Source: Actinoplanes octamycinicus (GTDB lineage Bacteria > Actinomycetota > Actinomycetes > Mycobacteriales > Micromonosporaceae). From it: a stretch of 64,000 nucleotides of DNA. The notes under the pieces are model-generated. The model did not search any database, was not told the DNA's origin, and saw only the letters and a list, made by a program, of their open reading frames with translations. This document shows, one piece after another, positions 3,010 through 41,767 of this stretch (the stretch's first letter is position 1; the number at the start of each line of letters is the position of its first letter). Where the stretch lies: positions 2,585,501 through 2,649,500 of the forward strand of contig NZ_JACHNB010000001.1 in NCBI RefSeq assembly GCF_014205225.1. Reading direction: 5' to 3'. A program made the translations under genes and the position numbers.

Positions 3010-3372
3010 ATGACAGAGCCGCACGATCCCCGGGGCAACCTGGTGCGGCCATACGCGGTGACCCGCGGCCGGACCGAGCCGATCCGGGACATCCCGATCG
3101 AAGCGATCCTGGTCGCCAGCGCGGCGGCCGTTCAGGAAGCGCGTTTCGCCGGACATGACAAGTACCGCATCGCCGTGCTGTGCGAGCCGAAGGCCTTGTC
3201 GCTGGCCGAGCTGGCGGCGCTCACCCGGTTGCCCCTCGGGGTGGCCCGGGTGCTCGTCGCCGACATGGTCACCGAGGGCCTGCTCGCGTTGCACAGCGCC
3301 GCTCCCAAGAAGGGTTTCACGGAGCGGATGGACCTGCTGGGAAGGGTTTTGAGTGGACTTCGCAAGCTCTGA
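3010..3372 (+). CDS. DUF742 family protein (conservon third gene)
   Basis: A 120-residue protein with the DUF742 hallmark LVRPYAVTRGRT near the N-terminus, followed by a winged-helix-like region (LSLAELAALTRLPLGVARVL). DUF742 proteins occur in conservon operons between the Roadblock and GTPase genes; their biochemical role is not settled, and the helix-turn-helix look suggests a scaffold or DNA-contacting role. ATG start with GAGATGAGGTG a few bases upstream. Its end overlaps the GTPase start by 20 bases. Confidence 0.92.
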   Translation: MTEPHDPRGNLVRPYAVTRGRTEPIRDIPIEAILVASAAAVQEARFAGHDKYRIAVLCEPKALSLAELAALTRLPLGVARVLVADMVTEGLLALHSAAPKKGFTERMDLLGRVLSGLRKL

Positions 3373-3967
3373 GCAGGCGGGGGCGCCTCCTTCGGAGATC
3401 GTCTCGGCGAAGATCGTCGTCGCCGGTGGGTTCGGCGTCGGCAAGACGACGCTGGTCGGCGCGGTCTCCGAGATCGAGCCGCTGACCACCGAGGCCGTGA
3501 TGACCGCGGCCGGCGCCGGCATCGACGACGCCTCCAAGGTGCCGGAGAAGGGCACCACCACGGTGGCGATGGACTTCGGCCGGATCACCATGGCCGAGGA
3601 CCTGATCCTCTACCTGTTCGGCACGCCGGGTCAGACCCGCTTCTGGTTCATGTGGGACGAGCTGATCCGGGGCGCGGTCGGCGCCGCGGTGATGGTCGAC
3701 ACGCGCCGGCTCACCGACGCGTTCGCGCCGCTCGACTACTTCGAGAACCGGCACCTGCCCTACCTGGTCGCGGTGAACTGCTTCGACGGCGCGCCCCGCT
3801 ACGAGCCGGAGGAGGTCCGCGAGGCCCTCGCCATCCCGGAGCGCGTCCCGCTGGTGATGTGTGACGCCCGCCACCGCGAATCGGTCAAGTCGGTCCTGAT
3901 CGGCGTGGTCGAACACGCCATGGCGACCCTGGTGGCCGAGCACGAACGCGGCGTCGCCGTCGGCTGA
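3353..3967 (+). CDS. MglA-like small GTPase (conservon fourth gene)
   Basis: A 204-residue P-loop GTPase. G1 is GGFGVGKTT (about residues 25-33), G3 is GTPGQ, and the G4 position reads NCFD rather than the textbook NKxD, as is common in this bacterial ATP/GTP-binding family. It is expected to be the switch component of the conservon complex, cycling with the Roadblock partner beneath the sensor. The GTG start lies inside the DUF742 gene. No cytochrome P450 gene follows, unlike some longer Streptomyces conservons; an IS110 element lies directly downstream. Confidence 0.93.
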   Translation: MDFASSEQAGAPPSEIVSAKIVVAGGFGVGKTTLVGAVSEIEPLTTEAVMTAAGAGIDDASKVPEKGTTTVAMDFGRITMAEDLILYLFGTPGQTRFWFMWDELIRGAVGAAVMVDTRRLTDAFAPLDYFENRHLPYLVAVNCFDGAPRYEPEEVREALAIPERVPLVMCDARHRESVKSVLIGVVEHAMATLVAEHERGVAVG

Positions 3968-4022
3968 TCCCCCGGCACGCCCACATCCTGAAGATCAACT
4001 TCAAGAACGGCATATATACGCA

Positions 4023-4042
4023 GGTCCGCCCGGGTGCGGACC
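4023..4042 (+). terminator. Hairpin after the conservon operon
   Basis: GGTCCGC (4023-4029) pairs with GCGGACC (4036-4042) across a 6-nt loop, 55 bases after the GTPase stop. There is no T-tract, so it may be a factor-assisted terminator or mRNA end. Confidence 0.4.
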
Positions 4043-4064
4043 GCATGCTCCCGGCACCCCTCTG

Positions 4065-5243
4065 TCAAGGGGTTGGTGTGAGGGGTGTTTTAGGGTGGTG
4101 GTTGGCGGGTCCGGGTTGTGACTTTTCCGAAGTGTCGATCTTGGGGTTTGGGTCGGCCGCGCTGGAGTTCAGAGTCGCCCCCGTGTGTCCTCCCGGACCC
4201 GTCGCTGTCTGTTGTGCCGTGTGGTCGTCTTTGATCATTTGGCGGTAGACGGTGTCGGACAGGCGTCGTTTCAACGCTCGCATGGCTTCCATCGCGGTTT
4301 TGCCTTCGGCGCGTTTGCGCTGGTAGTAGGCGCGGCCGGGGGTGTCGAAGCGGAGCTGGGTGATGGCCATGATGTGCAGGACCCGGTTGATGCGCCGGTT
4401 CCCGGCCCGGTTGAGCCGGTGATGATGGTTGTCGCCGGAGGACACGTCGATGGGGGCGGTGCCGTTCCAGGTGGCGAAGTGCCCGCGGGTCGGGAAGCGG
4501 CTGATGTCGCCGATGTCGCCGAGCAGGCGGGCGGCGCCGGAGGGGCCGATGCCGTTGAGGCTGGTCAGCTGGGTGCCGGTGGCGGCCAGCACGGTCTTCA
4601 GCTGCCGGTTGGCTGCTTTGATCTTGGTGTCCAGGGTGGTGAGCTCGTCGGCCAGGTCGCCGGCCAGCTGATAGCGGGTGGCGGTGACGATGTCGCCGGC
4701 CGGGACGCTGACGCGTTCGAGCAGGGTGCGGGCCTGGTCGGTGGTCAGGTTCTTCTTCGCGCCGCCGGGGATCAGTTCGAGCAGTAGCTGGTGCAGCCGG
4801 TTGATGGTCTCGGTGCGGGCGACACCGAGCTGGTCGCGGCGGTCGGCCAGCAGCCGCAGCGCGACGGTGGCGCCGTCGGCGTGAACGCGGCGCAGGCCCG
4901 GGGTGCGCAGGGCGGTCACCGCGATGTGGTGCGCGTCGTGACCGTCGGTTTTACGGCCGTGCCCGGTGTCAAAGTTGCGGGCTTTCGCGGCGAGTTTCGC
5001 CGGGACGTCCAGCACGGTTTCGCCGTCGGCGACCAGCCGCTGGGCCAGGTGCCGGCCGATGCCGTTACAGCCCTCGACCGCCCACACCCGGCCGGCGTGA
5101 CGGCGGCCGGCGGCGAGCATCTGCTGGTAGCCACCGGTGTCGGTGCCGTACCTGCCACGGGCCAGCACCTGTTCACGCTCGTTGATGATCTCGATCGTCG
5201 CGGACCGCTTGTGCGGATCGACTCCAATGATCAGCTGACCCAT
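4065..5243 (-). CDS. IS110-family transposase/recombinase
   Basis: A 392-residue DEDD recombinase that excises and inserts its element, guided in this family by a bridge RNA. The N-terminal RuvC-like domain has all four acidic residues: D9 (GVDPHK), E57 (AVEGCNGIG), D100 and D103 (KTDGHDA). The C-terminal Tnp_20 domain has NGIGPSGAA followed by DVSSGDNHHH, the expected place for the catalytic serine. I chose the ATG at 5243, just before the RuvC strand; an in-frame ATG 13 codons upstream (5282) is possible but adds no conserved sequence. No frameshift or stop is seen, so the gene looks intact. Confidence 0.93.
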   Translation of the reverse strand: MGQLIIGVDPHKRSATIEIINEREQVLARGRYGTDTGGYQQMLAAGRRHAGRVWAVEGCNGIGRHLAQRLVADGETVLDVPAKLAAKARNFDTGHGRKTDGHDAHHIAVTALRTPGLRRVHADGATVALRLLADRRDQLGVARTETINRLHQLLLELIPGGAKKNLTTDQARTLLERVSVPAGDIVTATRYQLAGDLADELTTLDTKIKAANRQLKTVLAATGTQLTSLNGIGPSGAARLLGDIGDISRFPTRGHFATWNGTAPIDVSSGDNHHHRLNRAGNRRINRVLHIMAITQLRFDTPGRAYYQRKRAEGKTAMEAMRALKRRLSDTVYRQMIKDDHTAQQTATGPGGHTGATLNSSAADPNPKIDTSEKSQPGPANHHPKTPLTPTP

Positions 5244-5297
5244 GTACCCGTTGACCTTCCCGTCGTCGCGGCAGAACCACACCGGCGGGAGGGCAAC

Positions 5298-5479
5298 GCT
5301 ACTTACAGCTGGGCAAACCCCTCTTCAGCCACTCCGCGCCACGGTGACCGGCAGGGTCCAAGCCGGGAGAGAGCCACACCCCGCCATCTGAGTGGGCAGC
5401 GCGGGCCTGAGCACCCTACCGATCACCTCGACCAAGCCTGGCCGGGCCGCGGTCGTACACCAAATTCTCTTTAAGTAGC
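5298..5479 (-). ncRNA. Candidate IS110 bridge RNA
   Basis: On the transposase strand, upstream of the gene, GCTACTTA and its complement TAAGTAGC enclose a 182-nt segment, near the size of the published IS621 bridge RNA. Inside it a CCGGC/GCCGG hairpin with a 9-nt loop is visible. No transcript evidence exists here, and the assignment rests on position, size and the closing stem only. Confidence 0.3.
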
Positions 5480-5483
5480 GCGG

Positions 5484-5845
5484 GCCGAGGGCGGCGATCT
5501 GGCCGCTGGCGCGTCCAGGGCGATCGCCGCCCTCTTCGCTGTCCGCTGCACTTCCGGAGATCAAGAGCACCGCCCGGTTCCAAGCGGGCCGAGTGCGTGA
5601 GTCGCGACCGGGCCTTGAGCGGCTTCGGTCTCCGGGGTTGGCGATCGGAGCCACCCTCGGGCGTCGCCCTTGCGGGCTGAGCGTTCTGGACGCGCCAGCG
5701 GCCAGCTCAGACCGGAAGGGTCCCTGGCGGGAGCGACGATCAGTGATCAGCGCGGACCCGAGTCAGCAATCTTCTGATCTTTGACCCGGGACGGGATGGA
5801 CTTCTGCCGGGCGGCCGCGGGTGGATGCCGGTGTGAGGCGGCGTC
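5484..5845. other. Non-coding stretch between the IS110 element and hemD
   Basis: About 360 bases with no gene I can support. It holds one copy of the structured dispersed repeat (5661-5758) and TGATCTTT just after it. The convergent hemD-like gene ends at 5846. Confidence 0.6.
5661..5758 (+). repeat. Dispersed hairpin repeat, copy A
   Basis: A 98-nt element whose second copy is at 41616-41712 (about 83 of 98 aligned positions identical by eye). Its main stem pairs 5667-5682 with 5705-5720 (16 pairs, two mismatches) around a 22-nt loop, which can form a smaller CTGG/CCAG hairpin. A second small stem, TCCC/GGGA (5721-5732), follows, then a conserved tail GAGCGACGATC and GATCAGCGCGGACC. It lies in non-coding sequence near the IS110 element. 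Confidence 0.75.
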
Positions 5846-6991
5846 TCAGGTGGGGATGCGGTAGCCGCGTTTGACGACGGTCTGGATGACGCCGGGGAGG
5901 GCCAGGCCGGCTCGGAGGCGGGCGACGGCCATCTCGACGGCGTGTTCGTCGGCGTGGCGGGGGAGGGCCTGCAGCAGGGCGGCGCGGGAGAGGACCCGGC
6001 CCGGTGAGGTGGCCAGGGCGCGCAGGACGGCCATCGGGCCGGGGGCGAGCTGGCGGAGTTCGCCGTCGACCACCGCGGCGTGCCCGCGCAGGGTGATCGA
6101 GTGGCCGTTGACCTGGATGGTGACCGCGCGCTTGGGCAGTTCGTCGACGAGGGTGCGGACCAGGGCGCTGAGCCGGGCGCGGTTCGGGGTGGAGACCGGG
6201 ACGTCGTGCCGGCGCAGCGGGGCGGCGGTGACCGGGCCCACGCAGGCGGCCAGCACGTCGGTGCGGAACGCCGCCAGCAGCGGATCGGTGGCCGGGCCGG
6301 CGGCGCGCAGCAGGGCCTGGACCGCGGCGGCCGAGGTGAACGTCACGGCATCGACGAGCTTGCCGGCGATGAGATCGACCAGGCGGTGCAGCGGGGCCGG
6401 GTCGGTGGGCGGCGCCCAGCGGTGCACCGGCACCTCGACCACCCGGGCGCCGGCCGCGGTCAGCGCCTCGGTGAACTCCGGCTGACTCTCGCCGTGCAAT
6501 TGGAGTGCGACGGTGAGCCCGGCGACACCCCGGCCGGTCAGATGCTCGACCACCTCCGTCGAGCCCTCGCCGTCCGGGGTCCACTGCTCGCGCAGGCCGG
6601 CGGCGCGCACCGCAGCCCGCGCCTTGGGGCCGCGAGCCACCAGGTAGGCGCGGCCGAGCACGGCGCGCAGCGGCTCGGCCAGGCCCCAGCCCTCCGCCGC
6701 CTCCAGCCAGCCGCGCATCCCGATCCCGGTGTTGACCAGCACGATGTCCGGGGGAGCGTCGAGGCAGGCGCGGGTCGCGGCGCGCAGCTCGGCGTCGTCG
6801 GCGATCGGCACGATGCGCAGCGCGGGGGCCAGCACGACGCGGGCGCCGCGGCTCTCCAGCAGGCCGGCCAGCTCGTCGCGGCGGCGGTCGGCGGTCACGC
6901 CGATGGTGTAACCGGAGAGGCTCGCGGCCGGGTCGTCCAGCGCGGGCGCGGACAGCGTGGGCCGCCGGGAACCCGGGATCCGGCCGGTCAT
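5846..6991 (-). CDS. hemD: Uroporphyrinogen-III synthase-like protein with C-terminal winged helix
   Basis: A 381-residue two-part protein. The first 270 residues look like a HemD (uroporphyrinogen-III synthase) bilobed fold, beginning GYTIGVTADRRRDELAGLL and with the TFTSAAAVQALL segment typical of the family. HemD cyclises hydroxymethylbilane to uroporphyrinogen III in heme/siroheme synthesis. The last 100 residues form an OmpR-type winged helix ending VVKRGYRIPT. Actinobacteria often carry this HemD-plus-DNA-binding fusion, which may link tetrapyrrole synthesis to gene control; whether it is catalytic or mainly a regulator is unclear. I chose the ATG at 6991; the longer open frame upstream is Arg-rich and not family-like. 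Confidence 0.85.
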   Translation of the reverse strand: MTGRIPGSRRPTLSAPALDDPAASLSGYTIGVTADRRRDELAGLLESRGARVVLAPALRIVPIADDAELRAATRACLDAPPDIVLVNTGIGMRGWLEAAEGWGLAEPLRAVLGRAYLVARGPKARAAVRAAGLREQWTPDGEGSTEVVEHLTGRGVAGLTVALQLHGESQPEFTEALTAAGARVVEVPVHRWAPPTDPAPLHRLVDLIAGKLVDAVTFTSAAAVQALLRAAGPATDPLLAAFRTDVLAACVGPVTAAPLRRHDVPVSTPNRARLSALVRTLVDELPKRAVTIQVNGHSITLRGHAAVVDGELRQLAPGPMAVLRALATSPGRVLSRAALLQALPRHADEHAVEMAVARLRAGLALPGVIQTVVKRGYRIPT

Positions 6992-41521: not shown

Positions 41522-41615
41522 TCCGGTCAGCCGCGGCTTCGATCAAACCCGCTTCGGGTACGCGGTGAGCACTGCCGCTGCGGGTTGTGATCTGGCACGT
41601 CGCCACCACCCGCGG

Positions 41616-41712
41616 ACGCCGCCCTTGCGGGTTTCGCGTTCTGGGCGCGCCCGCGCCCTGCGAAGCCCGGAAGGGTCCCCGCGGGAGCGACGATCGGTGA
41701 TCAGCGCGGACC
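41616..41712 (+). repeat. Dispersed hairpin repeat, copy B
   Basis: A 97-nt element matching copy A at 5661-5758. The main stem pairs 41622-41637 with 41660-41675 (16 positions, one mismatch and one G-T) around a loop of the same 22-nt length. The inner stem reads TTTCGC/GCGAAG where copy A has CTGAGC/GCTCAG, so pairing is kept while the bases differ. TTTGATCTTC and GAAGTTGATC follow at 41727-41748. It fills the gap between the convergent bldM-like and DUF5319 genes. Confidence 0.75.
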
Positions 41713-41767
41713 GGGGCAATACAGAATTTGATCTTCGTGAAGTTGATCTCGCGAACGCCGGCCGCGC

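Follow-up and report, generated by a model that had tools for sequence, protein, structure and literature searches.

The 64,000-nt stretch of Actinoplanes octamycinicus DNA analyzed here (the window) carries two similar non-coding segments 36 kb apart, W1 and W2, that had been predicted to form a hairpin selected for its folding rather than its sequence. This raises the question of whether such selection can be demonstrated and, if so, what kind of element the two segments represent. Both lie where they had been reported, are 86% identical over query positions 2 to 98, and belong to a dispersed repeat family whose members are about 150 bp long. A third copy, W3, lies about 120 bp from W1 (Table 1). 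That the repeat is dispersed, selected for folding, and REP-like is a conclusion that we hold with great confidence. Our fuller reading, to which we assign a probability of about one-half, is that it is a REP-like nonautonomous repeat in which the tip-bearing strand folds and the tip is read by a trans-acting, non-RAYT factor that uses a single-stranded DNA hairpin to mobilize or maintain the repeat.

Table 1. Features of the repeat copies and of the IS110-family element in the window, with the sites of head-to-head pairs
Feature	Position	Strand	Basis or remark
W1, whole repeat, subfamily A	5634..5782	+	approximate ends; judged by eye from conserved flanks in own-genome copies
W1 lower stem, 5' arm	5667..5682	+	alignment columns 7-22
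W1 conserved tip (GTTC bulge, upper stem TGG-A.G-CGC, GCCA loop)	5683..5704	+	folding and alignment
W1 lower stem, 3' arm	5705..5720	+	alignment columns 45-60
W2, whole repeat, subfamily A variant	41582..41752	+	approximate ends; flanking conservation, by eye
W2 lower stem, 5' arm	41622..41637	+	alignment
W2 tip	41638..41659	+	alignment; G-C instead of A.G mismatch, T.T instead of T-A pair
W2 lower stem, 3' arm	41660..41675	+	alignment
W3, third copy, subfamily B: hairpin and GGCCCGCGC as far as the IS110 insertion point	5478..5543	-	tip-pattern search
W3 3' remainder past IS110 (GGGAGCATGCG... through TTGATCTTC tail)	3988..4052	-	sequence comparison
IS110-family element within W3	4053..5477	-	Pfam PF01548, PF02371; ends to within shared core base; right end at fixed offset from 29/29 left ends
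IS110-family transposase (DEDD_Tnp_IS110 + Transposase_20), 405 aa	4065..5282	-	Pfam
IS110 upstream non-coding region, 195 nt, containing GGCCCGCGC identical to left target flank; possible guide	5283..5477	-	sequence comparison
Head-to-head pair sites	window 5478-5726; L015, L075, L133, L212, L215, L454-L466

The structure drawn in the original prediction needed amendment in several respects. The arms of the proposed 16-bp stem do pair, but not cleanly, with 14 of 16 positions Watson-Crick in W1 (the others being one G.A and one G.G) and 14 in W2 (with one T.G and one G.G). The inner six pairs had been described as differing completely between the two copies while staying paired; three of the six differ, two of them through compensatory double changes and the third through a wobble. 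The loop has the predicted length of 22 nt in both W1 and W2 but is not open, as it folds further into an upper stem. The stand-alone folding energy of the given strand was unremarkable for W1 (z = -1.22) and modest for W2 (z = -2.47), so that the case for folding is one of covariation and not of energy.

The prediction was to be abandoned if further copies were lacking or if the inner stem proved unpaired in them; we found many copies with paired arms, both in the A. octamycinicus genome and in Actinoplanes relatives. A 100-nt query gave 41 BLAST matches on the 10.28-Mb chromosome. A tip pattern without indels and with up to two mismatches matched this genome 54 times (3 times for the reversed control), and a pattern admitting both tip lengths matched 97 times (17 for the control). 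Among the pattern places that were read, out of totals of 97 in this genome and 88 in a relative, G035, we counted at least 89 and at least 80 copies with paired arms, respectively. W2 and the copy at locus L129 do not match the two-length tip pattern and are outside the 89, and L070 and a 36-nt partial copy beside L002 were excluded from the count; loci L031 to L060 duplicated others and were removed by sequence. The 89 copies fall into two subfamilies defined in this analysis, A (34 copies) and B (55 copies).

On the tip-bearing strand, each repeat begins with a head resembling CCACCCGCGG, followed by the 5' arm, the tip, and the 3' arm, which is complementary to the first; a GGGAGC block and a tail rich in TTGATCTT complete it. 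The lower stem, of 13 to 16 bp, is freely variable yet paired, whereas the tip, of 22 (or 21) nt and typically GTTCTGGACGCGCCAGCGGCCA, is near constant. Within the tip, an upper stem (TGG-A.G-CGC opposite GCG-CCA), closed by a GCCA loop, stands above a 4-nt GTTC-type bulge. Five of the seven tip pairs were invariant in the 64 distinct copies of our main alignment (68 of 69 copies; L065 was omitted because its outer arms are out of register). The remaining two vary together: in 57 of the 64 distinct rows, columns 30/41 contain A.G and columns 27/44 contain T-A, and in the other 7, columns 30/41 contain C-G, G-C, or A-T and columns 27/44 contain T.T (6 rows) or G.T (1 row). The two positions thus swap roles, such that one non-Watson-Crick tip position is retained. 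Most loci were found through the tip, and its constancy is therefore partly ascertainment, but the set found by whole-repeat BLAST shows the same tip. Two further helices that we considered, one forming an additional hairpin on the 3' side of the core in subfamily B and the other an outer CGTCG/CGACG helix in subfamily A, were only weakly supported.

The tips of the two genomes differ to a small extent. Tips of 21 and 22 nt occur in both, at 44 versus 5 in subfamily B of G035 and 23 versus 32 in subfamily B of A. octamycinicus, and a GTCCT tip variant is present in 12 of 31 subfamily A copies in G035 and in 0 of 34 in A. octamycinicus. With the same pattern applied to subfamily B of both genomes, Fst reached 0.24 in the tip, whereas the arms averaged 0.018 and did not exceed 0.10. 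An apparent genome-wide co-change of the tip (Fst of 0.71 at a B tip column) was largely ascertainment, the indel-free pattern being blind to 21-nt tips, of which the set of IS110 ends exposed ten copies in A. octamycinicus. We retain the between-genome difference in its weak version only. Separately, many near-identical copies in A. palleronii (on contigs among L179 to L293) have a hybrid form, with an A-like 5' arm and a B-like 3' hairpin; the repeat is modular.

Pairing of the arms was examined in the same 64 distinct copies, in which 14 of the 16 lower-stem pairs had changed on both sides. There were 238 double-changed cells, compared with a mean of 98 after shuffling (0 of 500 shuffles was as high) and with 14 to 65 in slid registers. 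Because the split between A and B accounts for part of this excess, we repeated the test inside each subfamily and obtained 34 double-changed cells versus 10 shuffled in A and 32 versus 8 in B, where 96.5% of the lower-stem cells were paired. Among the tip matches in the loci collected, 232 of 235 had 9 or more of the 13 arm positions paired and showed 56 distinct inner-six combinations, although these loci came partly from a whole-repeat DNA search and a model search, both of which favor paired arms; the subset from the tip-only scan held at least 104 copies with paired arms. Four tip matches outside the genus, among the matches listed, had only 3, 4, 4, and 4 of 13 positions paired. Furthermore, arms paired better with their own partners than with arms swapped within the subfamily (11.81 versus 8.76 of 13 positions in 167 distinct A copies; 12.63 versus 10.81 in 124 distinct B copies), and a direct pair change was seen at a site common to A. 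octamycinicus and G035, CTTGGC/GCCAAG versus CTTCGC/GCGAAG. These results strongly support the view that folding is selected rather than sequence, as had been predicted.

The mismatches that remain in the arms identify the folding strand. Across 291 distinct copies, the arm positions that are not Watson-Crick included 273 G.T and 7 A.C, these cells not being independent events; G.T was the commoner in 20 of the 21 columns in which the two differed, and G.G and G.A outnumbered C.C and C.T. For pairs 1 to 9 only, G.T led A.C by 25 to 2 in A. octamycinicus and by 25 to 1 in G035. Since G.T reads as A.C on the complement and G.T dominates, the tip-bearing strand is the one selected to fold, and it does so as RNA or as single-stranded DNA. 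DNA folding parameters made the sense core more stable than its complement in each of 169 copies; with RNA parameters this was true of 142 of them, the two being equal in 26 and the sense core less stable in 1. As G.T, G.G, and G.A are the stabler mismatches in DNA too, the asymmetry names the strand and does not decide between RNA and DNA. If the strand is exposed, cytosine deamination could contribute to the excess of G.T but not of G.G.

This asymmetry bears directly on the alternative that the copies are dispersed small structured RNAs, transcribed from their own promoter or processed from read-through, in which the hairpin would make an RNA-protein or RNA-RNA contact with the tip as its ligand face. 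The asymmetry would be expected equally from a selected RNA or, in part, from a strand that is often single stranded and deaminated. Strong covariation and wobble pairs on one strand only are the marks of a structured RNA, and the constant bulged tip with its single swapping mismatch is in keeping with one, but a single-stranded DNA hairpin would bear the same covariation and wobbles. Copies in tandem gaps of the A. octamycinicus genome lean toward the sense orientation (19 to 7), but those of G035 divide 17 to 14, and the bias is weak when these two genomes and the named contigs are pooled (sense 60, antisense 46). Rfam gave no family at the gathering score in the window, and a permissive Rfam search of four loci yielded a single, off-position match, to an miRNA with an E value of 2.8. 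Moreover, dozens of diverging copies that turn over are atypical of regulatory RNA. We regard a small RNA as somewhat unlikely, although it is the strongest of the competing readings.

Most repeat copies are located downstream of genes, many of them in convergent gaps. W1 and W3 sit between a plus-strand gene (3353-3967) and hemD (minus strand, ending at 5846), a gap that is convergent with the IS110 element set aside, and W2 sits between convergent luxR-type and DUF5319 genes. The 89 A. octamycinicus copies comprised 44 in convergent, 26 in tandem, and 3 in divergent gaps, with 15 at a locus edge and 1 inside a called gene, while the 80 G035 copies comprised 45 convergent, 31 tandem, 3 divergent, and 1 edge. 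For 104 copies on the named contigs, the counts were 35 convergent, 49 tandem, 7 divergent, 12 edge, and 1 inside a gene, and for 59 copies in other relatives (partly those of G035) they were 31 convergent, 23 tandem, 2 divergent, and 3 edge. Background gaps of at least 150 bp on the named contigs, repeat-bearing gaps included, were 58 convergent, 131 tandem, and 87 divergent. Gene orientation was taken from a home-made codon-usage gene caller and checked by eye in the window.

Such placement would also suit 3'-end elements acting on the neighboring genes, that is, bidirectional terminators, attenuators, or mRNA stabilizers between convergent genes. An element of this kind is difficult to reconcile with a wobble excess confined to one strand in copies that face genes both ways, and the luxR-type gene before W2 already has what looks by eye like a terminator hairpin of its own. 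The sites are, in addition, often empty of the repeat: only 4 of 29 relatives have a model match in the gap at the DUF5319 site and 11 of 29 at the GTPase site, with match-free gaps down to 30 and 5 bp, respectively. We consider a 3'-end role improbable. Relatives' copies at the two window sites belong to other subfamilies, lie in other orientations, or number two.

Neighboring copies tend to face each other. Among pairs no more than 8 kb apart in three genomes, 20 of 25 were head to head, and several pairs were common to genomes; two tail-to-tail pairs appeared in the DNA-search list, in genomes G032 and G021. The head-to-head facing persists at 5 to 7 kb, around a divergently transcribed block. 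Comparison of the number, size, and direction of called genes at eight loci revealed no gene shared by the stretches that head-in pairs enclose, and one head-in pair flanks a tRNA-Leu gene. At positions 1600-1840 of L015, the left half of the repeat is tandemly duplicated several times next to a copy, the partner copy lying across the tRNA-Leu gene.

In the searches made, the family was found only in Actinoplanes sensu lato. A DNA search detected it in 45 of 60 same-genus genomes, that of A. octamycinicus included. A model search of 200 genomes of the bacterial family found 22 positives, all among the 36 of this genus and none in 43 other genera. The strict filters of this model search may have overlooked weak copies, and its results disagree with those of the DNA search for some genomes. 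In a named collection, 116 of 120 stretches among the matches listed were from Actinoplanes, Paractinoplanes, or Symbioplanes. The near-identical cores of A. palleronii (at least 17 copies) have differing flanks, and the set looks as it might after a recent burst.

Comparison of A. octamycinicus with G035 revealed 34 sites with a copy in the same orientation and 3 with a copy in the opposite orientation only. At shared sites, the flanks were 91% identical, and arm likeness was 0.865 (32 same-subfamily pairs), compared with 0.847 for other pairs; the shared-site pairs had a mean percentile of 0.60, with 8 of 32 above 0.9. We read this as turnover or conversion at old sites, either of which would fit the likeness data equally well. 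The flanks at empty sites were too diverged for insertion ends and target duplications to be read.

Rapid matched-pair changes in the arms, shared-site copies only somewhat more alike than random ones, and the left-half tandem duplications would also be seen at a hot spot of recombination or conversion, in which a palindrome without any selected function is kept by template-switch correction of its arms. By itself, this would leave the constant tip, its single retained mismatch, and the purine-rich mismatches on one strand unexplained, and we consider it very unlikely. Chance similarity of W1 and W2 is ruled out by shuffling (the 22-nt motif GGGAGCGACGATCRGTGATCAG, with up to three mismatches, occurs twice in the window and in 0 of 100 shuffles), by the dozens of copies in the genome, and by the pairing of their arms.

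The prediction had suggested a REP-like element, and placement and IS110 targeting bear this out, but we found neither the GTAG tag nor the flanking RAYT that classical REPs have. Like the REPs, BIMEs, and REPINs of the GTAG superfamily, which are found mainly in Proteobacteria and are described as dispersed intergenic palindromes downstream of genes, in convergent and codirectional gaps, and often in head-to-head pairs (PMC3733652), the Actinoplanes repeat is palindromic, intergenic, high in copy number, enriched downstream of genes and in convergent gaps, and often paired head to head. REPs are also described as landing sites for insertion sequences (PMC1525189), including IS621 of the IS110 family (PMC11208160). 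The Actinoplanes repeat is far longer, however, at about 150 bp with a 13- to 16-bp stem, a bulge, and an upper stem; its host is an actinobacterium; and its paired copies, 0.2 to 7 kb apart, are spaced far more widely than BIMEs. An unpaired GTAG or GTGG at the hairpin foot was sought in 69 A. octamycinicus copies, over the 15 nt that flank the 13-bp stem on either side. On the 5' side it occurred in 3 of the 69 (L065, L066, and L067, those of L066 and L067 lying inside the stem in the fixed-offset register), and on the 3' side no repeat-derived tag was seen, the CTAC in 19 rows being the IS110 junction.

A search of the A. octamycinicus genome with the Pfam Y1 model gave no RAYT flanked by inverted copies: among the copies listed, the closest to any of the five Y1_Tnp matches lay about 20 kb off. 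We rejected a RAYT identity for these five, which look like IS200/IS605 copies; a second gene beside each is presumably the TnpB partner of IS200/IS605. Failing the tag and the RAYT, we call the repeat REP-like and do not file it as a REP. REPs without a dedicated transposase have been reported, these being the CGTC palindromes, mostly in head-to-head arrangement (PMC3733652). They have 8- to 9-bp stems and 4- to 5-nt loops, however, compared with the 13- to 16-bp stems found here, and CGTC is found ahead of the stem only in subfamily A and is missing from B, so that the repeat does not belong with them either. MITEs and PATEs are nonautonomous derivatives of insertion sequences and, like the Actinoplanes repeat, are small, non-coding, and dispersed; they depend on a trans factor, as the Actinoplanes repeat is proposed to do. 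No terminal inverted repeats or target duplications were seen here, where the repeat ends are approximate, and by eye the ends were unlike those of one IS200/IS605 copy from the same genome. No published description of the repeat was found in the literature searched, which took in few subscription journals.

Covariation, strand asymmetry, placement, spread in the searches made, and IS110 landing, all observed directly, are the basis of the mechanism that we propose for a REP-like repeat read in trans. The functional form would be the single strand that carries the tip, folded into a long hairpin. The lower stem would need only to pair, and the tip would be near constant because a trans-acting protein reads its bulged, once-mismatched shape. 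A non-RAYT factor may mobilize or maintain the repeat through the single-stranded DNA hairpin, and copies may persist mainly downstream of genes, often in convergent gaps, where they would be least harmful. Orientation relative to the replichores showed no bias in A. octamycinicus (225 of 300 permutations were as high), which is unlike lagging-strand transposition.

REPs have been tied to RAYT transposases, by which GTAG REPs are thought to be mobilized and which recognize REP DNA in single-stranded form (PMC3733652, PMC3116915, PMC2817692). According to one survey, the Actinobacteridae (high-GC Gram-positive bacteria) have RAYT-type enzymes of subclass 1.1 only (PMC6006769), and this, together with the resemblance of the Y1 matches to IS200/IS605, leads us to infer a different tip-recognizing trans factor. 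A large REP-like family with turnover in a group surveyed as having only another RAYT subclass (PMC6006769) would imply another mobilizer, and the covariation and strand asymmetry indicate the strand and the hairpin face that would serve as bait for it. More tentatively, the repeat may represent a RAYT-independent class of hairpin repeats in Actinobacteria, in which one strand folds, the arms vary as long as they pair, and a tip-reading protein spreads or maintains the repeat via single-stranded DNA or reverse-copied RNA; this generalization is possible but less probable than our reading of the Actinoplanes family itself.

The IS110 element that interrupts W3 inserts at one nucleotide position in the subfamily B repeat. 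All 29 exact left ends of the window-type element in the A. octamycinicus genome directly follow GGCCCGCGC, and all 29 right ends abut GGGAGC; the W3 counterpart in G035 is intact. A repeat tip lies within about 60 nt upstream of 26 of the 29 left ends. The three exceptions, L479 without the upper hairpin and L489 and L499 with the right arm only, suggest that the element may require no more than the right-hand portion of its target repeat. None of the 36 A-type rows in the whole-repeat BLAST set was interrupted by IS110; this set was used because an IS110 left end had served as one mark of B in sorting the 89 copies.

Specific insertion sequences have been described as landing in REPs (PMC1525189), IS110-family elements among them (PMC11208160, PMC11187229), so the targeting seen here adds one more case to an established pattern. 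As with IS621 and its bridge-RNA targeting of REPs, an IS110 element lies at one point beside a REP-like hairpin, and its upstream non-coding region contains GGCCCGCGC (20 of 500 mononucleotide shuffles were as good). Unlike IS621, the right-hand guide match in this 195-nt region was at chance level (320 of 500 shuffles were as good), and a bridge RNA role is putative. The 29 insertions at one target point nevertheless provide a naturally replicated set for tests of guide-RNA targeting outside Proteobacteria. An alternative version of the IS110 left end is present at L068 and L124. At L127, the repeat runs into TACTTA, a short piece of the IS110 left end, and then straight into later repeat sequence, which is perhaps the scar of an imprecise excision.
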